From positions 1 through 40,231 of IMG/VR virus record IMGVR_UViG_3300028178_000005: a stretch of 40,231 nucleotides of DNA; one strand, 5' to 3'. The notes under the pieces are model-generated. The model was not told the DNA's origin. It saw only the letters and a list, made by a program, of their open reading frames with translations, and searched no databases. This document shows, piece by piece, positions 6,567-40,231 of this stretch; the stretch's first letter is position 1; every line of letters starts with the position of its first letter. The position numbers and the translations under genes were made by a program. This stretch comes from a virus.

Positions 6567-6607
6567 ATATATATGTGTTGTTGGTTGGTTGGTTTGGTTG
6601 GTTGGAT

Positions 6608-10693: not shown

Positions 10694-10740
10694 GGGGTGT
10701 GCGGGGTCAGTGGTGATTGTTCTGTTTTTGATTACTTTCG

Positions 10741-18571: not shown

Positions 18572-18595
18572 ATCACCTTGCGGGGCCCGCTGGCG

Positions 18596-18614
18596 ATTTC
18601 CCTGCTAGGAACTC
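18596..18614 (-). repeat. 19-bp late repeat, copy 3 (before the fibre)
   Basis: GAGTTCCTAGCAGGGAAAT on the minus strand, identical to the sequences at 34185-34203 and 37732-37750. The first two bases overlap the stop codon of the giant gene. It can form UUCCU-AGCA-GGGAA and is followed by a GCGG/CCGC mini-hairpin. It sits 25 bases before the fibre start. Confidence 0.8.
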
Positions 18615-21600
18615 AGAGAGGGTCCGCGTTTTCGATCATGCGCAGCGATTGGTCCACAAGATTGGAGAAGGCACCGGCTTCCGCCGCGCCCTTGTGGAAG
18701 AGCCCCAGGCCGATGAGAATTCTGTTGATCCGGCGTTCCATCCACATCACGCGGTTCTTGTCCGGTATATCCATGTGCCACAGCGCATCACCCAGATCCT
18801 TCATGGCCTTGAAAGCCTTGGTAGCCTTGGCCATTTCCGACATGTTCCAGCCGCTGGCCAGATCGCGGATCAAAGGGATGCCGCCGGCCGGACCCAGCAG
18901 CGCCTGGGCGAGCACGGCTTTGAGGCTCCAGTTGCGCTCGTCGAACCATTTGTCATCATCGCCGCCGTCCATCATGTCGCGCAGCATGCGGGAAATCACC
19001 GTGTTGATCAGGCCGGTGCTCAGCCAGATCGCGCCGGCGGTGGAGCGGAATTCCGCGCTGGTCAGCAGGCCGGCCGCGCTGTTTTCCTTCCACGCGCGGC
19101 GCGCGGACTCGAAGAAGAGCGCGCTTTCCTTGCGCGCGTCCGTGGCGAAGAGAAACAGCAACCGCGCCGCCTCATTGGATGACAGCTCGTAAAGCGAGCG
19201 CTCCGCGAGTTCCAGCGGCTGCGCGGTGCGCCTCACATCATCCTCGGTGAGACGGTCCGCCAGGGCGGAGGCGTCCGCCTCGGACAGCCCGGCGGCGCGT
19301 TCGCGGCGGAAGTGGTAATCCCAGGCGATGGCCGCGCCCAGCGCGGTGGATTGAGCGTCCGACGTGCCGATGAGCCGCATGGAGGCCAGAATCAGATTGC
19401 CGGCGCGGGTGGGTTTCTCGGATCTCAGGCGGGAAGTGGCCATCCGGAGTTCCGGGGAAAACCCGTTATCCGCGCGCAGCGTGATGTAATCCGCCTCGCG
19501 GAACCTGCGATAGCTGATTTTTCCGGCGGCGAAGCGTGCCAAACCGCGCGCCCAGTTCCCCACGCCGATGCGGCGCGCCGTGCCGAACGCGGGCAGCACG
19601 TAGTTCTTGATCAGCGTGGAGAATCGGAAGGCCAGGCCGAGCACCGCGATATTGCGCTGCATGCCGCGGATGAGATGGTCCACGCCATCCGAGACCTTGC
19701 GTTGCTTCAGCCCGTTCTGTTCGAACGCCAGCAGCCAGCCATCCAGCGCGTTGACCAGCGCCCGGCCGTGAACGGCCTCGATGGCCTGGCGGGTTTCCAG
19801 TCCGCCGAGCACGGCCTTCATTTCGCGCACCAGCGGGGCGAAGGCGCGCCAGTGTTCCGAGCTGGCGACGTGCCCCTGGAACACGCTCACAGCTCCTTGC
19901 AGCGCGGGGGCCAGGCTGTGCGAGGGGGCGCGGGTTTTGGTGAAATTGGCACGGAATCCGCCCTCCGGCACCATGCCCGCCGCTTCCGCCGGCCCGCCTA
20001 TCTCCTTATCGGTGCCGCCACGCTCCGCGCGGAATGGCGAGTAATTTTCCTCAAGCGGCAGATCCACGCCGAACATTTCGCGGAAGACCACCGCAAGGGG
20101 TTCGTAGTTTTCCCGGTAGAATTCGCCCAGCCAATCCGCCATGGACATGGCCTCCGGCCCGAGCTGGTCCACCGCGGATTGCACGACGTCCGGGGTGAAC
20201 CCGTGGAGTTCCAGATTCTTCGCGTAGCGCGCCTGGCGTGACGTGAGCACCAGCGTGACGGCCTGCATCGGCGTAAGATTGACTTCCACGGCCGTGCGCG
20301 TGCCGGTGGTTTTGAATTTGAGGAATTCCGTGGTATCGGCCCGGCCCTTGCGATCCACCGCGTTGTGCGCGTCGAGAGCCTCCTGGAGTGCGGGGAAATC
20401 CCCGGTGGTCAGCCCGTGCTCCGCCGGGTCGGCCGTGCCGTCGAGCAGGCCGGGCACGTTGGCCAGGCGGATTTCCATTTCCACGCCCGGCTCGCGGATT
20501 TGCTTTTGGATGGTGATGGATTGCTCCGCGCTCATTTCCCACAGGCGTTCCTGCACCTGGAAGATTCCGGGGTTTCCCATCGCGGCGGCTGCCGCTTCCA
20601 ACCATGCCTTATCGGCCGCGAGCATGGCATGGGTTTTCTGTTTCTGCGCATCCCCCACCGCCTGATTCCAGCGGGTGACGAGCGAATGCCCGGGCCCCAG
20701 CAGGCGTTCCAATACCTGCACGAAGGAAAGGAACTCCCCGCTGCCCGCTTCCAGCGCGGTGCGGTTTTCGCGCGATGCCTCGTGCGCCGCGCGCTGCTGG
20801 CGTGCGGCCAGGCTGCCCACGCCGCCCTCTTCCAGCAGCTTGCGCACCTTGGCCTTGTGGCGGGCCAGCGTGTTGCGCACCAGCGTGTCGTGATCGCGCA
20901 TGAGCGGCTCCGCTTCCGCCGGCGTCATGCCGTTGATGCGCCGGTGATCGAACTTCGGCATTTCAAAGCGCGGCAGGGTGACTCCCTTTTGCGCGGCGAG
21001 GGTTTCCAGCAGGATGCGCTGCAAGCCCGCCACTTCCGCCAGGCGATCCGATTCCTTGGCCTGCCACTCGTCGCGGCCGAAGGTGTAGGCACCGCGCAGC
21101 CATGAGAGTGCCGCCGCCTGGTCCGCCACGGTCTTGCCCTCGAAGCCCCCGGCGAGATCCAACACGCGGGCGCGGTTGGCCAGTTCCAGCGCTTCCGGGT
21201 GGACCACGCCTGGCACGCTCTCGTCGGCCATGCGTTGTTCCTCGTTTTCGATGGCCAGGCGTTCCGCGTCGAGCTGCGTTTCATCCAGCCCGTAATAGCG
21301 CTCCACCCAGCCGAACACGCGGTGCGCGTCCACGCCGATGCGTCCGCGCAGAGCTTCGCCGGGTTTGTTCTTCTTCGGCCTGGCCTTCTCGCGCAGGGTG
21401 GAGAGTTCCTTGCGGTGCTCGCCCTTGATCCACGCATCCACGTGTTCCTCTGCCAGCGCCACGCGGGCGGACAGGAACTTCAGCCGCGCCTCGTCGGATG
21501 CCAGCCTGGCAAGCTGCGTGTATCCGCCGATGCGCCCGCGCACTTCGGGCGGCAGCACCGTGAGGATGCCGTCGAGCATGGCCAGCGCGCGCAGCAACCG

Positions 21601-24600
21601 CTGGCGCGGACTGTAGTTGGCGGACTCCTCCTTGAGGCGTTCCCACTCCCACGCCTTGGCCTCCTCCTTGGCCTGTAAGCGCGCCTTGCGCACGTCCTCA
21701 CGGGCGGCGGCCATGTAGCCGCGCATCTTCTCCACGGTGGCGGCCTCGCGCTTCAGCGCGGCCCACAGCGCGTCCGGCGTGGGCGCGTTGATCAGGCCCG
21801 CGCCGAAGAGTTCCTCCGCCGCCACATCCGGCGCGATCGTGCCACCGAACACCGAGCGCGAAACCCCGTCGGATCCATCGTAGTCGCCTTGTTTTTTTGG
21901 ATCAAAGAAATCAATTCCGCGCCCGACAGCCTGTGCGTAGCCCATCAGGCGGCCGCGCAAGTGCGTTGCAGGATCGGCCAGCGCGGCATGCACCGGCTGT
22001 GCCTTGAGCTTGGCCAGATCCGGCTGATCGAGAATGCCATTGTGCCGGGCGTAGGCTTCTTCCTCAAGTTCCGCGCGGCGTGTGGCTTCGCGGAATGCGG
22101 CCTCGCGCTTGATCGATGCGGTCTTGCGCGGGTCCTCGATGGCCTTGCGCTTGTAGCCCTTGCCGAATGCGATCCCGAGTTCGTCCCTGTCGCGCTTGAG
22201 CAGGGAGAGCTTTTCAAGCATGCGGGTGAACATCGCCGCCTTGACGCGCGGGTCCTTGATGCGACTGGCGACGTTCATCGAAAGCGAATCCACGAACGCG
22301 GCCGGCGCGAGCGAGAATGAATCTTGTACCACCCACCGATGTTCGTGCTTGATTCCTGCCAGGAAGCGTGCGAGTGTTTCCGCGTCGCCCTTACCGGCGG
22401 CAAGGGCGGCATCCGTGGGAGTTTGAAGCTTCCGAGTAACGGGTGCCGCTTCTTCTTGCACTTCAAGCGCTTCAACGGAGTAAGCGGTATCGGATTGAAT
22501 GTCCTCTCCTTTCCAGCGGATCACCGTCATCAAAACATGGTGGCGCGTTCCATCAGGGAAATCCGCCCAGGCGTAACGCTTGTGGACTTCTTGAGCCGTT
22601 GGCTTTCCCGTCGCGCTCTCCACGATGGCAAGTTTTGAATTCCGTAACAGGCCGGGCAACATTGCGGCGGCTTGAAAATGATGGGCAAGGACTTCTTTCC
22701 GCTTCACCACGCCCGTCTCATCAAAGGTCCTTCCGCCAATTAAAACATTACCCTCCGGTAACGGGATCGTTTGTCTCCATTCACTGCGGTGATCTTCCTC
22801 CCATTGTTTCCATCGATCCAGCCACTCGGATTTTTTCGCCGATTCAAATCCTTCAAACGGATCGCTTGCGATTTTCACCACCTCCGGTGCTTCGGTGATT
22901 TTTCTCAATCCCGGCCCGGCGGGCACCATGCTGAACGGCTCGTCCTCCGTGGGCGTGAACGCCTCCTGGCCGACAAGCGCCGCGTGTTCGTCGCGCACGG
23001 TGCCGTCATGTTCGGCCTGAAGATCGCGGCCGGTGAGCTTGTTTAGAAACGCCTCGTAGTCCGCCTTGTCCAGCGTGCCCTCGCGCAGCGCCTTCTTCAT
23101 GGCCAGCGCACGGGCGGATGTGAGCCCGAGCACGCCTCGCGCGGCTTCCAGAAACGCGCGGAATTTGCGCGTGGCTCCCGGTGCCATGCGCGAGAGTGCG
23201 AGCAGGTTGCGCGATATGATGCCCGGCGAGATCCGCAGCGCCTTCGCGTCCTTGGCAAGCTTGCGGGTGCGCAGCAATTCGGATTCCAGAATGTGGGAGA
23301 TCCCCTCGTTGAGCATGCCATCGGTAATGTCCGCATCGGCGATGCCCTCGGGCAGCAGGGCCAGCTTTTGCCCCTTGAGCATGCCGCGCTTGAGCACCTG
23401 CCCGCGCATCACGCTGTCCACCGCGCGCACGAAGCGTAACTTTTCGTCGCGCACGATTACGCCCGCCGCCTCCAACTCGCGCAGCATGCCGTGGCCCATT
23501 TCGTGCACGATGGTCGTGACGCTGGCACCCTGGAACAGGCGGTTGGTGAACGTGCGCACTTTCCCCCGCAGCTCCATCACGTTGCGGCCCAGCGCGACCA
23601 TGGCCACTTCCCCGGTGCCGCCGTTGATTTGTTCATGCAGCGCCGCCTGTTCGTGGAATTGGTCGATGGCCCCGGGATCTTCCGCCGCGGCGATGGCTTC
23701 GGTGTAGCGGGTGCCCGTCTCGATGCTGTTGCGGGCCTGCCCGGTGGTGTCCATTTCCAGAGCCTCCGCGCCGCCTTCCAACAGGCTGGCCATGTAGGCC
23801 GTCTGATCGGCCCGGGATTCATCCATGGCCGCGCTGTGCGCGCGCATGACGCGCTCCGCGCCAGCCTGGTCAAGCCCGCTGGCCACCACCTCGCGCGTTT
23901 CCCCGTCGAGCACCGCGTAGCCGTCCGCGCTTTGGATCACCACGGGAACCACGCCGGATGCCTTGGCCTGGTTGGCGGTTTCCATTTGCGCCTTCATTTC
24001 CTCGGTGGCCGCCTTGGCGTCCGCGCTGTTCGGATCGTGGGTGGAAAGCACTTTATCGAGGGATGCGTTGCCGCTGTCCAACCCCTTGGCGGCTTCCAGG
24101 CGGAAGATATCGATATTCTCTTGGGGGATTCCCAAGGCCCTCAGCGCGACATCAGGTGCGTCCGTGAATGCCTTGACGCGTGAGTCGGCCCGGCTGCCGC
24201 CCGTCACCCCCATGATGGAGAGCGGCCCGACGATGGCGAAGGTCTCGATGGACTGCGCCCAGAAGCCGTCCAACTCGCCTCCCTTGCCCAGCCATTGCAC
24301 GCCGCGGATGTCGAGAGCCAACGCCGTGCCAAGCTTGCGCACCATCGGATCGATATAATTCTGTCCCACCTCCTGGACGCCCTCTTCCAGCCAGCCCGCA
24401 CCGAAGCGCGTCACGCCGCGTGCCAGCGGGCTTTTGATGCGGTCCATCATGCCGGTTAGAGCCTTGTCGAAGAACGGCAGGCGGCCGCGAACCAGCCCGG
24501 CCGTCAAACTGTCACCTATTAATTCCAAGGCCCCGCCGACGGGGGCCAGCACCGAGGCGTTGCCCTCCGCCTCCTGTTCGGATTGCCCTTGTGCGAGGAA

Positions 24601-25866
24601 GGTCCGGCGCAACGACTGATGATGATTCTCCGTGAGACTGGCGAAAAGCAAGGGCGACGCGTAGATCGCCGCGCCCACATTACCGAGCAGCCCGGGCAGC
24701 GCGTAGACCACCTTCTCCGGCAGGCGCTTCCAGTATCCCATGGAGTCGATCCCCGCCCCGTCCTCACCCGTCAGATAGCGGATCGGGTCATAGGTCTGCT
24801 GCTGCAACTCCACCACGTCCGCCACGAACGATTCGCGGGCGCGGAATTCCTTCTTTACCTCCAGATCCTGCTTCCGGTAGCGGTAGTTGAACTTCGCCTC
24901 CGGCCCGATCTCCCCCACGGGTGCCAGATCCAGCGCGCCCACCGCGCCCTCGTAAAGCATCCCGCCCACGTCGCGCCTGGCGGACTTGAAGAAGTTCACG
25001 AAGAATCCGTCCTGGTCGGTTTGCGAGAGTTCCTTGGAACGCACCCTGAGCGCGGCCAGGAACGGCTTGCGATCCGCCGGCGCGAGCGCTTCATACGCCG
25101 CGCGCGCGGCGTCCGCGTAATCCTCCTTAGCCTCGAAGGCGGAGAAAACCTTGTCGAGCTGCGGACGGAAGCGCGCTATCGTGTGCCTGACTTTGATCCG
25201 CGTATCGGTGTAGGCGACTGCTCGATCCGCAATGTCCTCCGGGGTGTCTCCGGGCATGCCGGCGATGTGATCTTTCTGCAACTTGAAAAATCCCCTCCGC
25301 CCGCTGGATCCCGTGTCGTCACGCGTGAGAATCTCATCCACGGCCGCGCGTTCAAGCGTCTTGTCCCAGACCGCTTTTTTGTCCCGGCGTTGCTGCGCGT
25401 CAGTCCGCAGCGCCTGGCGGAGCGATTCATCATCCCGCGCACCCGCGCCGCCGAATTGCTCCATGGAAAGCTTTTGGATCGCCAGCTTGCGGCCAAGGCC
25501 GGACGGCGGCACAGGCTCTTCACTGTGCAGATCGAGCCACGCGTCATTGACGGCGAGCAGATCCACGCGCGCCCGGCGCGGCCCCTCCGGCGTGCCGGTA
25601 TCCGCCAGCACCTCCGCGTCGATGTTATCCATGCCTTTGAAGTAACGGTCCACCAGCTCCTTGCGGGTTTGCTCGTCATCCTGTTCCCACGGTGGGATGC
25701 CCGCAGGAGTTCCATGATAAGCCAGGCGGGTGTTCACCTGCGCCGCGTTGAGCGCGTCGGGCGTCGCCTGCGCCACACCCAGCAGCGTGCGGTTGGGATC
25801 GGCTGCGGATTGCGGGATGCCCGCGGTGAGATCCACGGCGGGAACATCGAGAGTGCTTTCAATCAT
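18613..25866 (-). CDS. Giant polyvalent ejected protein with zincin and nuclease-like domains
   Basis: The product is 2,417 residues, 18% of the genome. It matches the large polyvalent proteins that podoviruses and plasmids carry, thought to be injected with DNA. Residues 1-600 are helical with some hydrophobic stretches (about 390-410). A zinc-protease motif HEMGH at 788-792 is followed by a helical section typical of this group. About 1035-1135 (GRTFDETGVVKRKEVLAHHFQAA ... YSVEALEV) resembles the BECR-like nuclease or LPD3-type domains of such proteins. A long coiled-coil region follows (about 1370-1850). The C-terminal part (about 1960-2417, with ENYSPF and HLIRGMQRNIAVLGLAFRFSTLIKNYVLPAFG) resembles the C-terminal LPD38-like domain. 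Base composition drops sharply near 22321-22880. Domain names are from memory of the family, not from a search. Confidence 0.85.
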   Translation of the reverse strand: MIESTLDVPAVDLTAGIPQSAADPNRTLLGVAQATPDALNAAQVNTRLAYHGTPAGIPPWEQDDEQTRKELVDRYFKGMDNIDAEVLADTGTPEGPRRARVDLLAVNDAWLDLHSEEPVPPSGLGRKLAIQKLSMEQFGGAGARDDESLRQALRTDAQQRRDKKAVWDKTLERAAVDEILTRDDTGSSGRRGFFKLQKDHIAGMPGDTPEDIADRAVAYTDTRIKVRHTIARFRPQLDKVFSAFEAKEDYADAARAAYEALAPADRKPFLAALRVRSKELSQTDQDGFFVNFFKSARRDVGGMLYEGAVGALDLAPVGEIGPEAKFNYRYRKQDLEVKKEFRARESFVADVVELQQQTYDPIRYLTGEDGAGIDSMGYWKRLPEKVVYALPGLLGNVGAAIYASPLLFASLTENHHQSLRRTFLAQGQSEQEAEGNASVLAPVGGALELIGDSLTAGLVRGRLPFFDKALTGMMDRIKSPLARGVTRFGAGWLEEGVQEVGQNYIDPMVRKLGTALALDIRGVQWLGKGGELDGFWAQSIETFAIVGPLSIMGVTGGSRADSRVKAFTDAPDVALRALGIPQENIDIFRLEAAKGLDSGNASLDKVLSTHDPNSADAKAATEEMKAQMETANQAKASGVVPVVIQSADGYAVLDGETREVVASGLDQAGAERVMRAHSAAMDESRADQTAYMASLLEGGAEALEMDTTGQARNSIETGTRYTEAIAAAEDPGAIDQFHEQAALHEQINGGTGEVAMVALGRNVMELRGKVRTFTNRLFQGASVTTIVHEMGHGMLRELEAAGVIVRDEKLRFVRAVDSVMRGQVLKRGMLKGQKLALLPEGIADADITDGMLNEGISHILESELLRTRKLAKDAKALRISPGIISRNLLALSRMAPGATRKFRAFLEAARGVLGLTSARALAMKKALREGTLDKADYEAFLNKLTGRDLQAEHDGTVRDEHAALVGQEAFTPTEDEPFSMVPAGPGLRKITEAPEVVKIASDPFEGFESAKKSEWLDRWKQWEEDHRSEWRQTIPLPEGNVLIGGRTFDETGVVKRKEVLAHHFQAAAMLPGLLRNSKLAIVESATGKPTAQEVHKRYAWADFPDGTRHHVLMTVIRWKGEDIQSDTAYSVEALEVQEEAAPVTRKLQTPTDAALAAGKGDAETLARFLAGIKHEHRWVVQDSFSLAPAAFVDSLSMNVASRIKDPRVKAAMFTRMLEKLSLLKRDRDELGIAFGKGYKRKAIEDPRKTASIKREAAFREATRRAELEEEAYARHNGILDQPDLAKLKAQPVHAALADPATHLRGRLMGYAQAVGRGIDFFDPKKQGDYDGSDGVSRSVFGGTIAPDVAAEELFGAGLINAPTPDALWAALKREAATVEKMRGYMAAAREDVRKARLQAKEEAKAWEWERLKEESANYSPRQRLLRALAMLDGILTVLPPEVRGRIGGYTQLARLASDEARLKFLSARVALAEEHVDAWIKGEHRKELSTLREKARPKKNKPGEALRGRIGVDAHRVFGWVERYYGLDETQLDAERLAIENEEQRMADESVPGVVHPEALELANRARVLDLAGGFEGKTVADQAAALSWLRGAYTFGRDEWQAKESDRLAEVAGLQRILLETLAAQKGVTLPRFEMPKFDHRRINGMTPAEAEPLMRDHDTLVRNTLARHKAKVRKLLEEGGVGSLAARQQRAAHEASRENRTALEAGSGEFLSFVQVLERLLGPGHSLVTRWNQAVGDAQKQKTHAMLAADKAWLEAAAAAMGNPGIFQVQERLWEMSAEQSITIQKQIREPGVEMEIRLANVPGLLDGTADPAEHGLTTGDFPALQEALDAHNAVDRKGRADTTEFLKFKTTGTRTAVEVNLTPMQAVTLVLTSRQARYAKNLELHGFTPDVVQSAVDQLGPEAMSMADWLGEFYRENYEPLAVVFREMFGVDLPLEENYSPFRAERGGTDKEIGGPAEAAGMVPEGGFRANFTKTRAPSHSLAPALQGAVSVFQGHVASSEHWRAFAPLVREMKAVLGGLETRQAIEAVHGRALVNALDGWLLAFEQNGLKQRKVSDGVDHLIRGMQRNIAVLGLAFRFSTLIKNYVLPAFGTARRIGVGNWARGLARFAAGKISYRRFREADYITLRADNGFSPELRMATSRLRSEKPTRAGNLILASMRLIGTSDAQSTALGAAIAWDYHFRRERAAGLSEADASALADRLTEDDVRRTAQPLELAERSLYELSSNEAARLLFLFATDARKESALFFESARRAWKENSAAGLLTSAEFRSTAGAIWLSTGLINTVISRMLRDMMDGGDDDKWFDERNWSLKAVLAQALLGPAGGIPLIRDLASGWNMSEMAKATKAFKAMKDLGDALWHMDIPDKNRVMWMERRINRILIGLGLFHKGAAEAGAFSNLVDQSLRMIENADPL

Positions 25867-28022: not shown

Positions 28023-28026
28023 GGGA

Positions 28027-28548: not shown

Positions 28549-28560
28549 GGCGGGCGGATT

Positions 28561-28959
28561 TCAGGTGGGTGAGAGGGTGGCGAAAACCGGGCTCTCCCCG
28601 GGCTGGAAACCCAGCCGCGCGAATTGCCGGGTGAGAGAGCGTGAATGCGTGAGGGTCATCATCGTGTGATAGCCAAGGTCCCGGGTGATTTTCTTGAGCA
28701 GGTCCACGGTCGGGCGGATCGAGCGGGCCACCTCGCGCGGTTTTGCGTCCGGGTTGGCCACCGGCCAGAGCAGCGAGCACAGGCCGCACGAATTGTCCAT
28801 GCTCACCCAGGCGGCGAACAAATCCTTGTCCCCTTCACTGGCGATCACGCCGAGCATGGGGACGCACTCGCACGGCGTGGCGGGCACACCGTGGCGGCAC
28901 CACCATTTTTCGACCATCGGATAGTCGCGGCCCTCGTCGTATGTGCGCAGCTGGATCAT
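28561..28959 (-). CDS. GNAT-like acetyltransferase-fold protein
   Basis: The product is 132 residues. MIQLRTYDEGRDYPMVEKWW, a central strand pair (MLGVIASEGDKDLFAAWVSMDNS) and a C-terminal helix-strand (TRQFARLGFQPGE) fit the GNAT fold. Proteins of this kind commonly lie between nozzle and ejection genes in podoviruses; the substrate is unknown. The start at 28959 overlaps the nozzle stop by ATGA. The acetyl-CoA loop is not clearly preserved, so activity is doubtful. Confidence 0.7.
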   Translation of the reverse strand: MIQLRTYDEGRDYPMVEKWWCRHGVPATPCECVPMLGVIASEGDKDLFAAWVSMDNSCGLCSLLWPVANPDAKPREVARSIRPTVDLLKKITRDLGYHTMMTLTHSRSLTRQFARLGFQPGESPVFATLSPT

Positions 28960-31823
28960 GTCATTTCTAGTGAATAGCGCAGCACCATGGCCTGCACGGC
29001 GGCGGGAAGGGGTTTGCGCATGCGCAGGATGCAGGTGACCTCGCGTTCGGTGCCGCCCTTCAGCCATTCCTCGTGCAGTCCGGTATGCAGCGCGGCCGGA
29101 GCGTCCATGAGATCCTCCGTGGTTGAGAAAACCAAATCCGAGTAAGTGGCCCCGCCATCCACGGACACCTGCACGCCGCCGGTTTTCCAGAACTGGAACA
29201 TGGCGCGGTGCATGCGTTTCTTTGCAGCCTTGCTGAGGGTTTGGGGATCGCCGGTTTCCAGGTAAGTGGGTTCCAACAGCGCGATGTATTCCAGTCCCAC
29301 GACCACTGTTTCCGCCACCGCATCCAGGGTGATTTGCCCGCTAACCACCCCTAGATTCGGATGGACCGCACCATCCGCCAATACGGAAACCCCGCAACCT
29401 TCCAGATGGTCCAGCCCCGTGATGACCTCGCTGGCCTGCCCGGTGAGAACCAGCGCGCAATCCGCGAACACGAGTTCTTTTTCCTCGCCGCCTTTCATGG
29501 CGTAAACCTGGTCCGGCACGAAGCGCTCGATGTAGCGCACTGTGGCATTGTTGACCGTGCGCACGGTGCTCACCCACACATGGTCATCCTCGCCCGAGCC
29601 CGCGACCACCGCCAGCGACTCGAACGCCCCGTCCGTGACATGGCGGCACCACCCGGCCACGTTCTGGCCGCGCTCGTAGGTGAGGCTCAGCAGGTCGCCG
29701 CGTTCCGTCACACACCATACCCGCGCTTCCGGATTGCGGGAAATGGCGATTTGGGTCATGCGCGCGTCGCCAAGGTGTTCGGCGAGCATGGTCAGATCGT
29801 TGGCGGCGTAGCCGTCGCGCTCCAGCGACCACGAGTATTCGCGCAGCTTGCGCTGTGAATGGCTGATAAACACAATCGAGTCGTTCACCGCGCGCGCCTG
29901 GATAGGCGCGGTGCCAAAAAGCGTGTTGCGCCGCAGCTTCGGGATATCCTCGCCGGGCCGCTCGCCCAGCACCCACTCGCCGGCGCTGGTGCCGATGATC
30001 AGAAAATCCTGCGACACGCACCATTCGATGGTCGCCGCCTCGTCGGCCTGAAGGGTATACATCACCGCGCGGTCGGCGGCGGCCGCTACGCGGAAATCCT
30101 CATAGGAATCCACCGCGCTGCCCCACAGGGTGGTCGGCTTGGCCGTGGTGCCGCCGAAGAAAAGCCGCGCCTGGTGGAGTGTGACCGCGCGCGGGTATCC
30201 ATTGCCCCCGCACCACGCCGGTTCCTCCCAATGCCGGGTGGCCGAGGATTCCAGCAACTGGCTTTTCACCACCCCTTTGAGCAGGGTGGTGGAGACGTAT
30301 TCGGTGATCTCCACGATGCCCGCATGATCGGGCGCGCCTGCCTGGAGTTCAGCGCGGATGCCGGGCGCGACGTTGGAGGCACCTTCGCACAGCGCATAGT
30401 TGAGCCGCAGGAACACCGGCACATCCTCGTTGCCGGTAAGCAGTTGGTTAACCTCGCTTTCGCTCGAAACAACCAGGTTGTGGGTCTCCCAGTTCACCTG
30501 GTCATCGCTGCGCTCGACAAGCACCGTGGTTTTCCACGCACCGCTGCCATTGCCGGTTGCGTTGGTCTGTGCGGACCACTCCCCCAGGACATACAGCGGA
30601 GCCGTGATCGCGCCCGCCGTGCCCGCCGTCACGTTATTGAGCTTGATTTCTCGGGTGAGGTCGTCGCGCTTGTGGGAAACCACCCACTTGGACCCCACAT
30701 GGCCGGCTGTGAAAAGAGCGCTCGAACAAAGCAGGCCCACCGTCTGGCCCACAGCCAGCTTTTCATAATCGCCCGCCGCCACATCATACGTCGTTTGCTT
30801 CCAGAATGCGTCTCCGTAAGGCTGTGAACCGGGTGCCACTCCATCCTGCAACCCGGACTGCCACGATGTGCGGACGTAGTATTTCGAGTTGTATTTGACC
30901 TTCTGGCCGGTGGTGTAATCCACCGCGGCGGAATAGGCGGCGGGCTCGCCGTAGAGTGATGTGGGGATCCACGCGCCCACCCGCCACCAGGTGGGGCTCG
31001 ATGCGGGCGTGTGGTTGGCATTGGCCGCCTGGAGCGAGGTATAGTAAAGCCCGCCACTCTTGCGTGTGACCCCCTGGCCGACCGAGGCGGATGTCCAATC
31101 CGCCGGTTCGCCCGCCTGATAGATATTGTCGTCCGCGATCCACAGCACTCGCCGCCACCAGGTGGGGTTTGTCGCCGGGGTGTGGCCGGTGTTGGAGCCG
31201 GCCAGCGAGACGTAGTGGATACCCGCATCCGTCACGTAAGCACCGAGTGCGTAGGTCCCTCCACCGTAGGTAGCCGGTCCGAACAGATTGTAATACGCCA
31301 CAAGCGGCGTGATGGTGGCCGTGGTGATATTGGGCCCCACGGTGGCGGGCCAGGCGTCGGCCACCCGGTCGATGCGCCAATCGGTTTCCGCATAGCGGGA
31401 AATCACACGCGGGAAGTGATCGGGATGCGCGATGTAACAAAGATCGTTCTGTTGGACGAACTGGAGCTGCCCGAGTTGCGCGGTGGTGTAGGGAGTGACC
31501 ATTTCGACGGGCACGTCCGTCACGCACACCAGCGCGGCATCCTCCGCGTTCCAGACGCGCATGAGCAGGTGGGAGAACTCCAGCAGGTAATGCGTGTCGC
31601 TGTCCACGGTGAACGCCACCAGGCGCACGGCGCTGTCACTCGCGGCCGCCGCTCCCAGGTATTGCGTGCCCGGCCGCCGGAACGCTCCGCCGTAGATATT
31701 GGGCGTCATGTTCTGCAAGGTGCGGCAGCCCATCCGGTATTTGTCCAGATCCACGCGCGGATCGAGCCACGGCGAGAGCTCGCCCGCGTTGAAGCTGATC
31801 CGGCGGTCGATGATTTCGGGCAT
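28956..31823 (-). CDS. Tail nozzle / tubular protein B-like, with three sugar-binding-like repeats
   Basis: The product is 955 residues. The opening (DRRISFNAGELSPWLDPRVDLDKYRMGCRTLQNMTP) and the later TSAGEWVLGERPG and SYTLQADEAATIEW-like blocks are typical of podoviral nozzle proteins that form the distal tail tube. Residues about 192-342 hold three repeats with the pattern GxxVxxxGxxYxS ... NTGHTPxxxPTWWRR (192-224, 247-282, 304-342), like CBM5/12-type carbohydrate-binding modules inserted in the nozzle. The start overlaps the adaptor stop by one base. Confidence 0.88.
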   Translation of the reverse strand: MPEIIDRRISFNAGELSPWLDPRVDLDKYRMGCRTLQNMTPNIYGGAFRRPGTQYLGAAAASDSAVRLVAFTVDSDTHYLLEFSHLLMRVWNAEDAALVCVTDVPVEMVTPYTTAQLGQLQFVQQNDLCYIAHPDHFPRVISRYAETDWRIDRVADAWPATVGPNITTATITPLVAYYNLFGPATYGGGTYALGAYVTDAGIHYVSLAGSNTGHTPATNPTWWRRVLWIADDNIYQAGEPADWTSASVGQGVTRKSGGLYYTSLQAANANHTPASSPTWWRVGAWIPTSLYGEPAAYSAAVDYTTGQKVKYNSKYYVRTSWQSGLQDGVAPGSQPYGDAFWKQTTYDVAAGDYEKLAVGQTVGLLCSSALFTAGHVGSKWVVSHKRDDLTREIKLNNVTAGTAGAITAPLYVLGEWSAQTNATGNGSGAWKTTVLVERSDDQVNWETHNLVVSSESEVNQLLTGNEDVPVFLRLNYALCEGASNVAPGIRAELQAGAPDHAGIVEITEYVSTTLLKGVVKSQLLESSATRHWEEPAWCGGNGYPRAVTLHQARLFFGGTTAKPTTLWGSAVDSYEDFRVAAAADRAVMYTLQADEAATIEWCVSQDFLIIGTSAGEWVLGERPGEDIPKLRRNTLFGTAPIQARAVNDSIVFISHSQRKLREYSWSLERDGYAANDLTMLAEHLGDARMTQIAISRNPEARVWCVTERGDLLSLTYERGQNVAGWCRHVTDGAFESLAVVAGSGEDDHVWVSTVRTVNNATVRYIERFVPDQVYAMKGGEEKELVFADCALVLTGQASEVITGLDHLEGCGVSVLADGAVHPNLGVVSGQITLDAVAETVVVGLEYIALLEPTYLETGDPQTLSKAAKKRMHRAMFQFWKTGGVQVSVDGGATYSDLVFSTTEDLMDAPAALHTGLHEEWLKGGTEREVTCILRMRKPLPAAVQAMVLRYSLEMT

Positions 31824-32452
31824 CAGGAAGGAAGTTGATAGGTTTCGGGATTGCGCCCGGTGCCGCGCGCGCGCAGCAGGCGGGAGCGCGAGAATACTTT
31901 CTGCCAGCGCGGATTGCGCCCGGTGCCGCTTTCCTGCGCGTCATGCTGGCGGGCCTCGCCCAGCGCCTCGCGGAAGAGCCGGGCGAAGGTGATGGCCTTT
32001 TCCTCGCTGCCGGTGAGCGGCAGGGCGATCTTGCCCGCCAGGCGCACCGCCATCGCATTGGCTAGCAGCCCGTCCGCGTAGCCGATGGTGATGCGCCGGA
32101 TGTAGCGGATGGATACCGAGTCCTCGTCACTGGCGAGCTTCAATCCCTCCACCTCGAAGAACTCGCTGGAATCCTCGTATTGCTCGCCGTTGACTTCCAG
32201 CAGCCGGATAAAGTCTCCCGGCAGGTCGTAGTAGAAATCATAACCCGCCACCGGGGCCGTTGAGTTTCTGGCCAGCGTCACGCGTTCGGTGGCGCAGTTC
32301 CACCGGCCCATGCGCAGCGTTTCGTCCATGGCGGACTGGATGAACTGGCGGCACACCCGCGCGGGCTTGCTCGTTTCGCTCTCGATGTCGGAAATCGGCA
32401 GCTCTCCCAGGAGCGCCAGGGCGTGGTTGGCAAGATCGGTGTTGGTGGTCAT
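31823..32452 (-). CDS. Tail adaptor / tubular protein A-like
   Basis: The product is 209 residues. TDLANHALALLGELPISDIES ... ARVCRQFIQSAMDETLRMGRWNCATERVTL and the YDLPGDFIRLLEVNG block match the gp11 (TubA)-like connectors that link portal and nozzle. The C-terminal tail repeats a short segment (GTGRNPRW and GTGRNPET). The terminator-like hairpin at 32461-32496 lies immediately before its start codon, so its message likely comes from read-through. Confidence 0.9.
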   Translation of the reverse strand: MTTNTDLANHALALLGELPISDIESETSKPARVCRQFIQSAMDETLRMGRWNCATERVTLARNSTAPVAGYDFYYDLPGDFIRLLEVNGEQYEDSSEFFEVEGLKLASDEDSVSIRYIRRITIGYADGLLANAMAVRLAGKIALPLTGSEEKAITFARLFREALGEARQHDAQESGTGRNPRWQKVFSRSRLLRARGTGRNPETYQLPS

Positions 32453-32496
32453 AAGGAAAACGGGCGGCGGACATCGGGAAAGACATCCGCCGCCCG
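32453..32496 (-). terminator. Strong hairpin with T-run before the tail genes
   Basis: On the minus strand CGGGCGGCGGA (32496-32486) and TCCGCCGCCCG (32471-32461) form an 11-bp GC stem followed by TTTTCCTT, a standard intrinsic terminator. The T-run ends at the ATG of the adaptor gene. This would cut expression of tail genes relative to the capsid genes upstream. Confidence 0.85.
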
Positions 32497-32530
32497 GTTA
32501 GGGTTGCTATAAGTCGGGCGAACTCCTCTC

Positions 32531-33022
32531 TTACAGACACTTGTAGGCCAGAATGACGTAGATTTCCCCCGCCTCGATGGTCGCGGTGAAGGTGGCCAGC
32601 GTCATGATGATGATCGAGGTGTCGGTGGTGGACACTCCGGTCGCGGCGACGGGGATCGGGTTGGCGAGTCCGTTGGGCAGCGGGGCCAGGGCAAGGAAGT
32701 CAACCACACCGGTCGAGGCGCAGTTGGCACCGTCGCAGTAGCGGTCAACGTCCACGATGTCACCGATATCGATGGTGAGGGCACCGGAGGTCGCGTCATC
32801 GGTCACGATGAGTTTGGACAATTCCGGCAGCACCATGGCTCCGGGTGGCAGCTTGCAGAGGGTGATGACATCGGTCGCCACATTGGCTGCATCGATGACA
32901 ACTTTGATGCGTGCTGTTTGAACATCGCCCCCGAGTTGACGCTTGTCGTCGATGCGCGAGCTGAAGTTCGCGCCCGCGGCGAGTTGCGCGGCGTATTGAA
33001 CGGATTGTGTGGTTTTGGCCAT
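32531..33022 (-). CDS. Capsid decoration or head protein candidate
   Basis: The product is 163 residues, beta-rich with few charges in its C-terminal half (TIDIGDIVDVDRYCDG ... IIIMTLATFTATIEAGEIYVILAYKCL). It lies directly after the capsid gene and before a terminator, so it is expected at high level. Comparable small beta-rich proteins follow capsid genes in podoviruses. No precise family is recognised. The leader holds CCAACCAACCAA and no Shine-Dalgarno sequence. Confidence 0.7.
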   Translation of the reverse strand: MAKTTQSVQYAAQLAAGANFSSRIDDKRQLGGDVQTARIKVVIDAANVATDVITLCKLPPGAMVLPELSKLIVTDDATSGALTIDIGDIVDVDRYCDGANCASTGVVDFLALAPLPNGLANPIPVAATGVSTTDTSIIIMTLATFTATIEAGEIYVILAYKCL

Positions 33023-33064
33023 ATGATTGTTTCGTTAGATCGTCGTTTTGGTTGGTTGGTTTAG

Positions 33065-33094
33065 CGGGCCGGGAGCGTGGTCACTCCCGGCCCG
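33065..33094 (-). other. Perfect hairpin between capsid and decoration genes
   Basis: CGGGCCGGGAG and CTCCCGGCCCG flank an 8-base loop and form an 11-bp stem eight bases after the capsid stop. No T-run follows on the minus strand, so it more likely protects the capsid mRNA 3' end or sets expression ratios than ends transcription. Confidence 0.7.
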
Positions 33095-33101
33095 GATTGG
33101 T

Positions 33102-34019
33102 TCAGAAGTCCTCGTCGCACAGGATTTGGATCACGCCCTCTTCATCCAGGCGCAGGCCGCCCCATCCCCATTCCGTGCGCAATTGCACGTCGTGGCGCTT
33201 GGTGGGCAGCTCATCCACCCATGATTGCGGGTTTTCCGCGATGCCGAACACCACCGAGTTGCGCGCGTAGGCGTAACAGGTGCGCACCTTGTTACCGTCA
33301 ATGGCCAGCAGGCTGGGCGAAACGGCCTTGACCGCCACTCCCATCAGGTTGACCACCGTGCCGGTGTGCAGGCGGCGGATTTCCGAGTAATCCGCGCTGG
33401 TGAACTGGGTCTCGCGCAAGAGGGACGCCACCTGGTTGTGGCTGATGACGAGCACCACCGGCGAGTTGTTTTCCACGTCCTGTCCGGTGACATCGTTGCT
33501 GCCCAGAATGCGGCAGACCTCGATCATCTTCTTGAACGTCATGTTGTTGGCGGTCTCGGCGGAGCCGAAATCCACCGCGATTTGCTGCCCGGCCGGGAAG
33601 GTGATGCCCGTGGCACCGGTCTTGCCGGACTGCACGGTTCCGCCAAGCGCGGCGATGAGCGTGCTGTCCATGTCACGGCCGGCGGCGGCGAGTTGCTGGC
33701 GCAGGATGGCCGCGTGCGGACTGCCCACCGTGCCGAGCTGCAGCACCTCGCGGCGGTCCACGATGTGCGCGGCATCCGAGAAACCGACATACAACCACCG
33801 GTATTCGGTGTCGATGTCATCCGGGTTGGTGTCGCCGAAGCGCGTGGTTATCTTGCGGGCGGAGAACGGCGCGATCTTCTGATAGCGCTTGGAATCGCCG
33901 TGGATGATCTCCGTGTTGACGTAGCCGTCGAGACGGGAGCTGAGTTGTTGGACGCCGAGACGCCACTGATCCGAATAGAGCAGCGGGAAGCCATCGGGAA
34001 TGTTGGATGTGTAAGCCAT
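33102..34019 (-). CDS. Major capsid protein
   Basis: The product is 305 residues, in range for podoviral coat proteins. Sequence between the scaffold gene and a small decoration gene, with FSDAAHIVDRREVLQLGT, RDMDSTLIAALGGTVQSG and a final RTEWGWGGLRLDEEGVIQILC, matches HK97-fold coat proteins I know from similar phages. The ATG at 34019 follows AAAACACTTTT with no Shine-Dalgarno sequence. The 195-base leader is unusually long and holds the 26-bp late repeat, a GCATTCTCGC block and two hairpins. Confidence 0.88.
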   Translation of the reverse strand: MAYTSNIPDGFPLLYSDQWRLGVQQLSSRLDGYVNTEIIHGDSKRYQKIAPFSARKITTRFGDTNPDDIDTEYRWLYVGFSDAAHIVDRREVLQLGTVGSPHAAILRQQLAAAGRDMDSTLIAALGGTVQSGKTGATGITFPAGQQIAVDFGSAETANNMTFKKMIEVCRILGSNDVTGQDVENNSPVVLVISHNQVASLLRETQFTSADYSEIRRLHTGTVVNLMGVAVKAVSPSLLAIDGNKVRTCYAYARNSVVFGIAENPQSWVDELPTKRHDVQLRTEWGWGGLRLDEEGVIQILCDEDF

Positions 34020-34178
34020 AAAAGTGTTTTCTGATAGGATGGATAGAAGCAAACGATTGGTTCCGAGTATCCGCACTCGCGGGTCGCCTGATTTTGTCAG
34101 GGTCGCGCCGTCCGGGTCGCCATCGCTGGCGAGTGTCCTATGGCTCAGACGCGGCGAGAATGCCTCCGCCGCGCGGGT

Positions 34179-34204
34179 CCGTCCATTTCCCTGCTAGGAA
34201 CTCG
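34179..34204 (-). repeat. Late repeat, copy 2 (before the capsid gene)
   Basis: This 26-base copy matches 37726-37751 exactly and shares a 19-base core with 18596-18614. It starts about 11 bases after the scaffold stop. GCATTCTCGC (34163-34154) follows 15 bases later, and the copy at 37726 has the same block 16 bases later. CGCGGCG/CGCCGCG form a stem right after the core here. Confidence 0.8.
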
Positions 34205-34214
34205 CGGGAAGGAA

Positions 34215-35189
34215 TCACCTGGCACCGGCGCGGCGCTTTTGCTGGTTGGCTTCCAGCGCGTAGAGTTCCTGCACACGGGCGGCCAGCGCCGGGTCGCGCT
34301 GCCACTGCGGGTTGGCCCGCATGATCGCCTCGCCCTGCTGGCGCGGAGACATGCTGCCGCTGGCGGCCTCCGCTCCCACGCCCGGCAGTGGTGCCTCGCG
34401 CAGGTTGCGGCGGCTATCATCGATCAGGCGCACGATCTTCGGATGGGAAAGCGCCGCCTGAAGAATCGGATCGGCCAGTTCCTCCGGCTCGAAGCGGGTT
34501 TGCACGTAGGCGCGGTTGGCTTCCAGCCGCGTTTCGTAATCCTTGCCCCACTCGGACTTGTAGGTCTGCTCGCTGGCCTGGATGAAGGAAACCACCCGGC
34601 TGTTGAACTGGTCCGTGGCCGCACCCGCCTGTGCCGCCACGGATTCCATGTGGCGCTGGAGAAGCTCCTGCGCGGCGGCCTGCGGCACGTGGTGGCGGTG
34701 CATGATTTCCGCGTAGCCCTTGGCTGTCTCGTCGCTCCATTCCACACCCGGCGGCAGGGTGGCCGGTTTGAGTTCGTAGGCGTCCGGAGAGTCGGGAACG
34801 CCGGCATCCTTGCGGTAAAGCGAAATATCCTCATCGGTCGCGCCGGGTTTGGGGTAGGAAATCCCGGTCTTTTTGCCGACGTATCCCAAAGTATCGTCCA
34901 GCACCTTGAACAGGGTGGTCTCGTCCTTGGCCAGCGCCGCCTTGGTGGCCAGGCGCTCGAAGCCCGCGGTGCGCAGGCTTTCGGTCCACCCTTCGGCGAA
35001 CGTGCCGTCCTTCTGGATGTGGTCGCCGAAAAACCGTGTCGGCGTGCCTGCGGGCGGTGGTGTGCCTGCCGCTGGCGCGGGAGTGCCGCCGCCAAGGAAT
35101 GGCGCGGGCGCTGCTACTGGTGCGGGTGTCGGGGTTGGTGTTCCTGCCGCAGGCGCGGCGGCCGGTGTTGCTGGTGCTGGTTCGCTCAT
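34215..35189 (-). CDS. Capsid scaffolding protein
   Basis: The product is 324 residues. A Pro/Ala/Thr-rich disordered start (about 1-50) is followed by a helical, charged body and a basic C-terminus (ANQQKRRAGAR), typical of scaffolds that bind coat protein. It lies directly before the capsid gene in the phage order. Start overlaps the upstream stop (ATGA). Confidence 0.85.
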   Translation of the reverse strand: MSEPAPATPAAAPAAGTPTPTPAPVAAPAPFLGGGTPAPAAGTPPPAGTPTRFFGDHIQKDGTFAEGWTESLRTAGFERLATKAALAKDETTLFKVLDDTLGYVGKKTGISYPKPGATDEDISLYRKDAGVPDSPDAYELKPATLPPGVEWSDETAKGYAEIMHRHHVPQAAAQELLQRHMESVAAQAGAATDQFNSRVVSFIQASEQTYKSEWGKDYETRLEANRAYVQTRFEPEELADPILQAALSHPKIVRLIDDSRRNLREAPLPGVGAEAASGSMSPRQQGEAIMRANPQWQRDPALAARVQELYALEANQQKRRAGAR

Positions 35190-35542
35190 ATGGGGAAAGG
35201 ATCACCCGGGCGGCAAAGGCCCAGGCAGTAGCGGAGACAGGAACGCTCTTGCTCGTCGAGCGCTTCCAGTTCCTCGCGGGTGGCGTGGTCCGCATACCAC
35301 ACGGCCACGCCTGGCGATTTCATGCCGATGCCGGTATGCGGCGGGCATGGTGGCCTGCCCTTGGACGGCTTGGCAGGAACAACCGGCTCCGCTGGCATGA
35401 TCTGGTAATTCTCCGCGATCCATGCGTCCACAGCGGGGCGCAGCCCGCCCTTGCCGGGAAACATTTGAATAGCTCCGGAGGCTCTCACCTTGCCGATTTT
35501 CTCCTCGTCGTTGTGAATGATGCCGTCTTGGATCGTGATCAT
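35186..35542 (-). CDS. Hypothetical protein between portal and scaffold
   Basis: The product is 118 residues. It begins with a small beta-rich part (MITIQDGIIHNDEEKIGKV), has a Pro/Lys-rich middle and a helical C-terminus containing cysteines (CLRYCLGLC). No family is recognised. Both ends overlap neighbours by ATGA, so it is made together with head genes and may be a minor head protein. Confidence 0.75.
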   Translation of the reverse strand: MITIQDGIIHNDEEKIGKVRASGAIQMFPGKGGLRPAVDAWIAENYQIMPAEPVVPAKPSKGRPPCPPHTGIGMKSPGVAVWYADHATREELEALDEQERSCLRYCLGLCRPGDPFPI

Positions 35543-35832
35543 AATGGCAGGATGTATTGAGGGTTGCCCTTGCGGCAGAGTTGCAGGATGTGGCAGATCA
35601 CCGCGCGTTCGCCGTCGCGGATGCCCGCGCGGATCGCGTTGACCTCGCCGCGCTCGGTCGCGATGTGCACCCGGCCCAGCAGGTCGAAGCGCTTCACCAG
35701 GTGCCCGAGCACCTCGCGCCCGCTTTCGGTTCCGAACACGTCGGCGAATACCTGCCCGAGGCGGTCCGCGTCCTTCACGTGCTCCGCCTGCTTCGTGCGC
35801 AGCGCCTCCATGCGTTCGTTGAGTTCGCTCAT
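35539..35832 (-). CDS. Bbp19-like small phage protein
   Basis: The product is 97 residues. FADVFGTESGREVLGHLVKRF and the closing AIRAGIRDGERAVICHILQLC match the Bbp19-like family, which is usually found next to portal genes of podoviruses. The function is unknown, presumably head assembly. Start overlaps the portal stop (ATGA). Confidence 0.8.
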   Translation of the reverse strand: MSELNERMEALRTKQAEHVKDADRLGQVFADVFGTESGREVLGHLVKRFDLLGRVHIATERGEVNAIRAGIRDGERAVICHILQLCRKGNPQYILPL

Positions 35833-37493
35833 TGGGGAAGTTGTTTGCCCAGTTGATCCTGGATTTGCGGTGGTGCGCCGCCGATGTTTTTAGCCACTTG
35901 GGAAGCGGCCTGCGCCTGTTCAAGCTGCGCCTGCTGCGCGCGCGCGGCGGCACGGTCGGCCGCCATCTTCTCGATTTCCTTCTTGGAGCGGATCCAGCTT
36001 TCCAACAGCCCCGCATTGCGGGCCGTGTCGCGCACGATCACCGGCATGTTGAGCGCGTCGATCGCGTCCGGGTAAACCTGGAGCATCGGCCCGGCGAGCT
36101 GCATGTATTCCATCAGGCTGCTATTCTGGCGGGCCTGCATGGCCAGCATGATCCGGTTCTTGTAGAGCACGGATGGAGTGGCCACTCCCGCGCGGCCCGC
36201 CTCGATGGTGCGCAGCACGGAGGCCGGCGGATTGGGAAACTTCCCGGCCCGCAGCAGCACCGCGAACACCCGCGTCAACACCGGATCGAGCATCTCGGAG
36301 ACCAGCCGCCCGAACACCGGCGAGAACTGGGAAAGCTTCTCACCCGCCGCGTATGCCGCTTCCGTCGCGGTGAGCGGACTGGAGCCCGCGCGGCTGGCGA
36401 ACAACTGGAAAAGATCCACGTGGAAAGCCCGTTCGATTTGTTCGCGCTTGTCGGCCATGCGGTCCTTGGCCACGTCGTAGCGGGACGTGGTGTTCCACTC
36501 CTTGAGCGATGCCACGGAGTTCGGATCATTGGAATCCACGTAGGTGATTTCCAGCGCGCCAAGCGCAACCTCGCCCTCAAGCGAGGATGGCGCGATCACC
36601 GGCGGGAATACCGCTTTCTCCGCAGCCACATCGGCCAGCTGGTTGAGGAAATTCAATTGATGCGCGTCGCCGCAGGCCGTGGTGCCCGGGCCGAATCCCC
36701 ACACGCACTGCCCGAATCTCCGGTAACGGTGCACCGCAAAGGGAAATTCGGAGTAACCGTCATCCGCCACGATTTCCTTGCTCCCCTCGTGCACGACGAG
36801 ACTCACCCACGGCCGCTTGTCCTTGTCAGGCGCGTCGGGCTTGGGATCTTCCATGCGCTGGAACACCGCGTGCACGAACATGCACGGTTCGGTCTTGCCT
36901 TCCGCCTTGCCCACCTTGGCGCGGATCGTTTCGGGCAGTTTGTCCGCGCCGAATTCCCCCGCCGCCTGGTCGGGCGTAAGCGATAGATCCCGGTAGAATC
37001 CGTTGACGCGCCCCTTGGCGTCCTCCGTGATGTAATAGGTCTTGATCGGCTGGTGGCGGAAGTGGATTTCCCCGTGATCGTCGATGTCCCCGCAGAAAAG
37101 CGCCGCCGTGCCGAAAACCGGAGAGCTGATGAGAACCTCCTGCCCCTCCTCGTAGAAGTTGCTGGCCTCCAGATTCTCCCTGGCCGTCTCGCTTGCCTTG
37201 CGGTAGAAGGAAACCGCGTCGTCATCGTCGCGCAATTCCGCGGGTGCCAGGTATTCGAACCAGATTTCCTCCCGTGGAATTACGAGGGATGCCAGCCCGT
37301 TGGCCAGGATGAGCGCCGCGCGCCGCCCGGTGCTGTCGTAAACCGCCTTCGCGGAAAGAATGTCGGGAATCCCTCCCGTGGCCATCAACGAGAACGGCAT
37401 GAACGAAGCGGACAGTTCGTCCCAGTGCTGTTCCAGAGGCTGCCGCGTCTTCTTGAGGGCATCCCGGCACGCAATGACTTCCTGTCCGGTCAT
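35829..37493 (-). CDS. Portal (head-tail connecting) protein
   Basis: The product is 554 residues. Segments FMPFSLMATGG, NGLASLVIPREEIWF, FRHQPIKTYYI and the long late helical region with QQAQLEQAQAASQVAKNIGG match the T7-type head-tail connector family (PF12236-like). Twelve copies form the vertex through which DNA is packed and ejected. The start at 37493 begins MTGQEVIACRDALKK and leaves one base after the 66-residue gene; a longer upstream frame overlaps that gene and is unlikely. Confidence 0.92.
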   Translation of the reverse strand: MTGQEVIACRDALKKTRQPLEQHWDELSASFMPFSLMATGGIPDILSAKAVYDSTGRRAALILANGLASLVIPREEIWFEYLAPAELRDDDDAVSFYRKASETARENLEASNFYEEGQEVLISSPVFGTAALFCGDIDDHGEIHFRHQPIKTYYITEDAKGRVNGFYRDLSLTPDQAAGEFGADKLPETIRAKVGKAEGKTEPCMFVHAVFQRMEDPKPDAPDKDKRPWVSLVVHEGSKEIVADDGYSEFPFAVHRYRRFGQCVWGFGPGTTACGDAHQLNFLNQLADVAAEKAVFPPVIAPSSLEGEVALGALEITYVDSNDPNSVASLKEWNTTSRYDVAKDRMADKREQIERAFHVDLFQLFASRAGSSPLTATEAAYAAGEKLSQFSPVFGRLVSEMLDPVLTRVFAVLLRAGKFPNPPASVLRTIEAGRAGVATPSVLYKNRIMLAMQARQNSSLMEYMQLAGPMLQVYPDAIDALNMPVIVRDTARNAGLLESWIRSKKEIEKMAADRAAARAQQAQLEQAQAASQVAKNIGGAPPQIQDQLGKQLPQ

Positions 37494-37494
37494 G

Positions 37495-37695
37495 TCAGGA
37501 AATTCCCAGGTAGGACGTGCCTTGGCCCGAGTTGCCCAGGGATTGCCCTGGCGCGGCGGAAAGGAAGGATTTGCGGTAGCTCGACTTGCGCCGCGCGTCG
37601 AGCATGGCGGCGTCGCCGGCGGAGTAGGCGTCGGCGGTCTTGGGGATCGCCGGGGCGGGCGGCGGTTCAGGCGGTTTCGGTGGTGAGCTGCCCAT
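37495..37695 (-). CDS. Small Pro-rich virion-gene partner
   Basis: The product is 66 residues: a Pro/Lys/Ala-rich start (SSPPKPPEPPPAPAIPK), a small helical part and a C-terminal YRKSF...GQGTSYLG. Very similar small proteins occur before portal genes in podoviruses, with unknown function. The GCATTCTCGC block ends four bases before its ATG. Confidence 0.75.
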   Translation of the reverse strand: MGSSPPKPPEPPPAPAIPKTADAYSAGDAAMLDARRKSSYRKSFLSAAPGQSLGNSGQGTSYLGIS

Positions 37696-38080
37696 GCGCG
37701 CGAGAATGCGCCCGGTTTTCCCGCGCCGTCCATTTCCCTGCTAGGAACTCGGCGGCGCGCTCCCAGCGCAGGCGCACCAGGCGTCCGTCGCGGTGGAAGG
37801 CCGCCCACGGCAGCCTCAGCCGGTCCGCTGCGGGCAGATGGGTGGGATCTCCGGCGAACAACCACACGAACCAACAATCACCGAGGGGATCGGTCTGCCT
37901 TATGTCCAGCAGCCGGGATTCCGGCCAGTCATGGCGCACCTTGCGCGCCAGCGCGAACATTTCAGGAGTGCTCCACACGTAGCCATGCAGAAAATGCGCC
38001 TCCACCACGTGGACAAACGGGGTTTCCGGGCAGTGTTCCAGGTGCCAGCGGGCGGCGCGCGCATAGGGTGTCTGATTCAT
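37667..38080 (-). CDS. Hypothetical protein between TerL and portal
   Basis: The product is 137 residues. Aromatic and His-rich first half (WHLEHCPETPFVHVVEAHFLHGYVWS), LLDIRQTDPLGDCWFVWLFAGDPTHL in the middle, charged C-terminus. No family is recognised. The last 29 bases overlap the 66-residue gene, and the 26-bp late repeat lies inside its 3' end, encoding EFLAGKW. The ATG at 38080 overlaps the TerL stop. Confidence 0.75.
   Translation of the reverse strand: MNQTPYARAARWHLEHCPETPFVHVVEAHFLHGYVWSTPEMFALARKVRHDWPESRLLDIRQTDPLGDCWFVWLFAGDPTHLPAADRLRLPWAAFHRDGRLVRLRWERAAEFLAGKWTARENRAHSRAHGQLTTETA
37726..37751 (-). repeat. Late repeat, copy 1 (before the 66-residue gene and portal)
   Basis: Identical over 26 bases to 34179-34204. 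Here it lies inside the coding part of the preceding gene, 31 bases upstream of the next start codon. The copy is therefore kept in spite of having to encode protein, which speaks for a function in the nucleic acid. Confidence 0.8.
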
Positions 38081-40123: not shown

Positions 40124-40231
40124 CATGGCGGGCGCTATCGCACACGTGTTGCATCTGCAGGTCAAGTGCAAAATCAGATATGCGGGCTGGCGGATTGCTA
40201 CCGGAATCGGGCGGATCGGTAGCAATCGGTA
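40095..40231. repeat. Right copy of 137-bp terminal direct repeat
   Basis: Same sequence as 1-137 apart from one base (40105). It includes the 11-bp inverted repeat (40193-40227) and the start of the winged-helix gene. Confidence 0.93.

Follow-up and report, generated by a model that had tools for sequence, protein, structure and literature searches.

A dyad-symmetric repeat beside three putative late promoters of a circular podophage, a candidate site for a phage-encoded regulator

Introduction

The control of late transcription is known in detail for only a few model phages. In an uncultured virus genome, an earlier note had drawn attention to a signal of 19 to 26 bp that recurs ahead of three late gene groups, and had named three options for it: a phage promoter for a modified host polymerase, an RNA processing site, or a boundary sequence allowing modules to be exchanged between phages. 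What is this repeat, and which factor might act on it? To address this question, we analyzed the whole stretch of DNA (40,231 nucleotides, hereafter the window) together with related viral sequences.

Results

Genome and late genes

The window contains the complete genome of a podophage, which is circular and 40,094 bp long; the ends of the window repeat 137 bp at 99% identity. Its late genes all lie on the minus strand, in the order winged-helix gene, small terminase, large terminase, 137-aa gene, 66-aa gene, portal, 97-aa gene, scaffold, capsid, tail genes, lysozyme-domain protein, 2417-aa protein and fibre (Table 1). Among bacterial genomes, the best terminase match (56%) came from a Verrucomicrobia MAG, and the host is probably a Verrucomicrobiota bacterium, a judgment based on the relatives and not on the window.

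A tyrosine integrase is also encoded. Near it, on the opposite strand, lies a short HTH-like gene at 11959-12384 (+), which had no Pfam match and is possibly an immunity repressor. Elsewhere, a pentapeptide-repeat protein is encoded at 10058-11020 (-) by an array with a 15-nt period, and a 60-nt repeat (70% identical) forms CCAACCAACCAA-rich leaders at 6549-6608 and 33003-33062 (-), directly before two start codons.

Table 1. Coordinates of the late genes, repeat copies and putative promoter elements in the window
Feature	Position	Strand	Remarks
88-aa MarR-fold winged-helix gene	39860..40126	-	Just upstream of terS; candidate late activator
Small terminase gene	39381..39878	-	Sf6-type
Large terminase gene	38077..39384	-	
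137-aa gene	37667..38080	-	After terL; copy 3 within its end
Copy 3, 16-bp imperfect dyad GTTCCTAGCAGGGAAA	37733..37748	-	Putative activator-binding site of 66-aa gene/portal promoter
Putative -35 of copy 3	37727..37732	-	TGGACG
Putative -10 of copy 3	37703..37708	-	CATTCT; 18-nt spacer; 7 nt before ATG at 37695
66-aa gene, then portal	37495..37695	-	Leaderless start predicted at 37695
Copy 2, dyad GTTCCTAGCAGGGAAA	34186..34201	-	Putative capsid promoter
Putative -35 of copy 2	34180..34185	-	TGGACG
Putative -10 of copy 2	34157..34162	-	CATTCT; 17-nt spacer
Major capsid gene	33102..34019	-	Leader of 130-140 nt with conserved RNA-like element
Copy 1, dyad GTTCCTAGCAGGGAAA	18597..18612	-	Putative fibre promoter; equivalents in G041, G043, G046
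Putative -35 of copy 1	18591..18596	-	TCGCCA, weak
Putative -10 of copy 1	18567..18572	-	TTTGAT; 7 nt before ATG 18559
Tail fibre gene	16133..18559	-	Predicted start ATG 18559, not TTG 18571

The repeat is an imperfect copy of an inverted repeat conserved in close relatives

The sequence GAGTTCCTAGCAGGGAAAT was found exactly three times in the window (37732-37750, 34185-34203 and 18596-18614), each time on the minus strand, before the 66-aa gene and portal, the capsid gene and the fibre gene. No copy was expected by chance (100 dinucleotide shuffles), and a search of the window that allowed up to three mismatches revealed no fourth. Besides the coding pentapeptide array, it is the sole exact sequence of at least 13 nt that is present three times in the window. 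In copies 2 and 3, the identity extends over 26 bases (34179-34204 and 37726-37751), and these two copies have GCATTCTCGC in common 15 and 16 nt further on. These results agree with the description in the earlier note, as does the finding that one copy is coding: copy 3 lies inside the final codons (E-F-L-A-G-K-W) of the 137-aa gene. Of the other two, copy 1 overlaps the stop codon (TGA) of the 2417-aa gene, and copy 2 follows the scaffold stop by 11 nt (19-mer coordinates).

In the close relatives, defined as phages with capsids 55-71% identical to that of the window, a 16-bp inverted repeat, ideally TTTCCC-N4-GGGAAA or a near variant, was found at the same boundaries, namely the end of the 137-aa gene and the gap between scaffold and capsid. 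Judged by its sequence, the window element is an imperfect copy of this inverted repeat, in which 5/8 pairs match. L223, L224, L227 and L228 each have two exact dyads, both at the equivalent boundaries and none elsewhere, as compared to a shuffle expectation of 0.0-0.025 per locus (for the loci in which shuffles were run); L238 has one exact dyad and one with a mismatch. Site positions were assigned by register in L229, L234, L236, L239 and L240, and no clear dyad was seen in L226 and L231. As in the window, a third site precedes the fibre gene in G041, G043 and G046, and the dyad stands at several putative late promoters per phage, three in the window and three each in G041 and G043. The exact 19-mer was absent from other viral contigs, because the relatives carry variants of their own. 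The earlier note had also asked whether copies in related phages precede the same gene groups, and our motif search indicated that they do.

The 66-aa and capsid sites of one phage were more alike than those of different phages (1/5040 permutations, with some of the sites register-assigned). This agreement fits a regulator that is specific to each lineage, and shared ancestry or within-phage conversion could add to it. When 2.9 million viral contigs were scanned for the dyad, its spacing and ATGG combined, 9 contigs matched: five known members of the group, a sixth (L248) in which the match directly precedes the 66-aa gene, and three unrelated contigs that look like chance matches.

The dyad abuts a putative -35/-10 pair at a fixed distance from the start codon

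Directly after the dyad stands a -35-like hexamer, and a -10-like hexamer lies 17-18 nt further; these hexamers are what had been noted earlier as a 26-bp extension and a shared GCATTCTCGC. In the window, TGGACG-N17/18-CATTCT occurs only at copies 2 and 3, and GCATTCTCGC also stands before the capsid gene of relative L239. The AT content past the dyad was 0.51 at positions 1-6, 0.26 at 7-23, 0.55 at 24-30 and 0.18 at 31-35. Two AT-rich boxes are thus separated by 17 GC-rich bases, suggesting -35 and -10 elements with a 17-nt spacer.

In the putative promoters of the 66-aa gene and the fibre gene, 35-39 nt separate the end of the dyad from the ATG, so that the transcript start would fall at the ATG. 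The dyad centre is located -43.5 to -47.5 from the A of the ATG (-45.5 in the window), values that are promoter coordinates only if transcription starts at the ATG. Both hexamers are poor and vary among the relatives, TCGCCA of copy 1 barely matching a -35 element, and a consensus promoter scan returned no sigma-70 site there. The 19-mer appears not to be a promoter core, and the dyad abutting the -35/-10 pair is probably a protein-binding site. The suggestion of a phage promoter for a modified host polymerase thus holds in part: the copies mark putative late promoters, before the same gene groups in the relatives, but the 19-mer is probably not their core.

A MarR-fold protein gene accompanies the terminase genes

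Immediately ahead of its terminase genes, the window has a winged-helix gene, which an iterative profile search also detected in 10/10 relatives that reach upstream of terL (L223, L224, L226, L228, L229, L231, L236, L238, L239 and L240); in L223 and L238, the small terminase gene follows it directly. The same search gave no match in the 27 more distant genomes or fragments, some of which end short of that region. The model of the window's 88-aa protein has a MarR winged-helix fold (pLDDT 93.9), with Foldseek matches to MarR proteins (best E 1e-5, TM 0.8-0.9). Pfam models of MarR, PadR and TrmB matched the protein below their curated cut-offs, and no Mor-family match was found for it.

Covariation between the recognition helix and the site was weak and not significant (Spearman 0.39, 269/4000 permutations; 585/4000 when controlled for capsid distance), and we rejected it as support for the binder. 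The assignment of the winged-helix protein thus rests on its position and co-occurrence, which make it the best candidate for the regulator that would bind the dyad. A ParB/KorB-like regulator was also considered and rejected, as such a protein is present in the distant phage G030 and has no match in the window.

Sites and leaders in distant relatives

Distant relatives (terminase about 50-60% identical) have repeated 14-20-mers of their own at late gene starts, in both orientations and often at the same borders, that is, ahead of the capsid and fibre genes and where the 137-aa gene ends. Their geometry differs from that in the window, as they lie either 0-20 nt or some 150 nt away from the ATG, and we do not claim that these sites and the window's dyad are the same system. 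In L088/G003, L087/G002, L098/G013, L166, L101/G016 and L099/G014, lineage-specific 14-17-mers at gene starts, such as GTTTTGACTAATCC and TTTTGACTGATACC, may form a distributed operator system. An 18-bp dyad, ATTGCCAC(TG/CA)GTGGCAAT, recurs about 20 times at gene starts across a 40-kb phage, L011/G030 (L211, L212), the same phage that encodes the ParB/KorB-like protein, and L109 (G024) contains an exact 48-bp repeat at locus positions 6596 and 8635. A host-regulon reading was rejected, since within the Verrucomicrobia MAG the related motif occurs nowhere but on the two phage contigs.

The capsid leader (window 34020-34157, minus strand) contains an RNA-like element conserved in 13 phages, with modules that include GGACACYCG-stem-GACCCG and GGCGACCCGC...GCGGACACTCG. 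Compensatory changes were found in 5/5 pairs of its first hairpin, and Rfam gave no match in the window. In several distant phages, a sigma-70-like promoter lies ahead of the capsid leader.

Discussion

We consider it reasonably likely that the repeat is the site of a phage regulator, most likely an activator, beside three weak late promoters. In the mechanism that we propose, a regulator encoded by the phage would bind to the repeat, a dyad-symmetric site directly upstream of the -35 in the late promoters of the 66-aa gene and portal, the capsid gene and the fibre gene. Like Mor and C of phage Mu, a dimer centred near -44 would recruit a host sigma-70-type polymerase to promoters in which both the -35 and the -10 are poor. 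The best candidate for this role is the 88-aa winged-helix protein with a MarR fold, whose gene lies immediately ahead of the terminase genes. Transcripts of the 66-aa and fibre genes are predicted to begin at the A of the ATG or at an adjacent base and to be leaderless, and the capsid transcript would have a conserved, apparently structured leader. Taken together, these features may constitute an undescribed phage late switch, probably of Verrucomicrobiota phages, in which a MarR-fold activator, its gene next to those for terminase, would fire several dyad-dependent promoters and two of the promoters would give leaderless mRNAs; we regard this larger proposal as tentative, somewhat more apt to fail in some part than to stand whole.

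The main alternative is that the dyad is an operator, at which a winged-helix or immunity repressor bound beside the -35 silences the late genes in the lysogen, much as multi-site operators or stoperators do. Repression is a common role of dyad sites and of MarR-type dimers, and MarR-type proteins are more often repressors; moreover, the window encodes an integrase, and the lineage-specific sites of distant relatives stand at gene starts in both orientations, some of them overlapping a -35 or -10. However, the site of the close relatives holds one fixed place upstream of the -35 with poor hexamers alongside, which suits activation, and a fixed spacing would be needless for an operator. In addition, the late genes alone carry the site, and none lies near the presumed repressor and integrase region of the window. 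We regard repression as unlikely, though still worth weighing.

A promoter for a phage-encoded RNA polymerase or special sigma factor, consisting of the 19-26-mer itself, would account for exact copies ahead of late gene groups, as in T7-like phages. This is improbable, since Pfam scans of the window's tested proteins showed no RNA polymerase, and since a near-palindrome looks much alike on either strand and on its own would give transcription no direction. A PF00940 search for a T7-type polymerase also gave no match, its positive controls being silent as well. Very improbable is a boundary sequence kept by recombination: the sites do lie at module borders, and fibre genes of differing kinds follow similar sites, but the dyad symmetry and fixed distance to the ATG would be left unexplained, and sites that differ between phages offer little homology for module exchange. 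Agreement within a phage and a constant distance to the start codon are instead what a regulatory site would show. Least credible of all is an RNA hairpin processed or bound in late mRNA. The hairpin UUCCU-AGCA-GGGAA, which had been proposed for each copy, can indeed be drawn, but folding energies at the three copies were no better than those of shuffled sequence (z -0.04, -0.76 and -1.09), and the additional GC hairpin was ordinary (z -0.38 and +0.53), as expected because the DNA is 63% GC. No Rfam family matched at the copies; the equivalent dyad of L223 has perfect arms and thus reads nearly the same on both strands; and if transcription starts at the ATG, the site lies outside the downstream gene's own transcript. 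We dropped this reading, and with it the RNA processing option.

If the activator reading is correct, an uncultured phage group, probably of Verrucomicrobiota, gains a testable late switch that consists of defined sites, start predictions at base resolution and a single 88-residue candidate protein. In related contigs, the dyad and its spacing can also be used to locate late-module starts.

Several known systems resemble the proposed one. In P2 and P4, a single activator (Ogr or delta) serves several late promoters through a dyad, as we propose here; that activator is a zinc-finger protein, unlike our candidate, and its site lies further upstream, near -55. Similar to the stoperators of mycobacteriophage L5, the sites are multi-copy, lie in short intergenic gaps and have a sequence specific to each phage lineage. 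Stoperators are asymmetric 13-mers, repressor-bound and orientation-dependent, with more than 20 per genome (PMC9283540), whereas the window has three near-dyads at a fixed distance to start codons; the two-orientation sites of the distant relatives had suggested such a system for the window, and this reading was dropped in view of the fixed-spacing dyad of the close relatives. In staphylococcal phages, the small regulator gene for Ltr/RinA lies just upstream of the late (terminase) genes and is required to switch them on (PMC13123087). The likeness to our small candidate gene is one of gene position; the staphylococcal sites are direct repeats at a single late-operon promoter, and those in the window are dyads at three separate putative promoters. 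The closest likeness in promoter geometry is to phage Mu, in which Mor binds a dyad from -51 to -36, centred at -43.5, in Pm, a promoter without a -35 hexamer (PMC4287176). Here, the candidate is a MarR-type winged-helix protein, the dyad sequence is another one, and leaderless starts are predicted. As at the Mor and C promoters (Pm; Plys, PI, PP and Pmom), the dyad abuts a poor -35 region from upstream, its centre is near -43.5 if transcripts start at the ATG, and one related dyad is common to several putative late promoters (PMC4287176).
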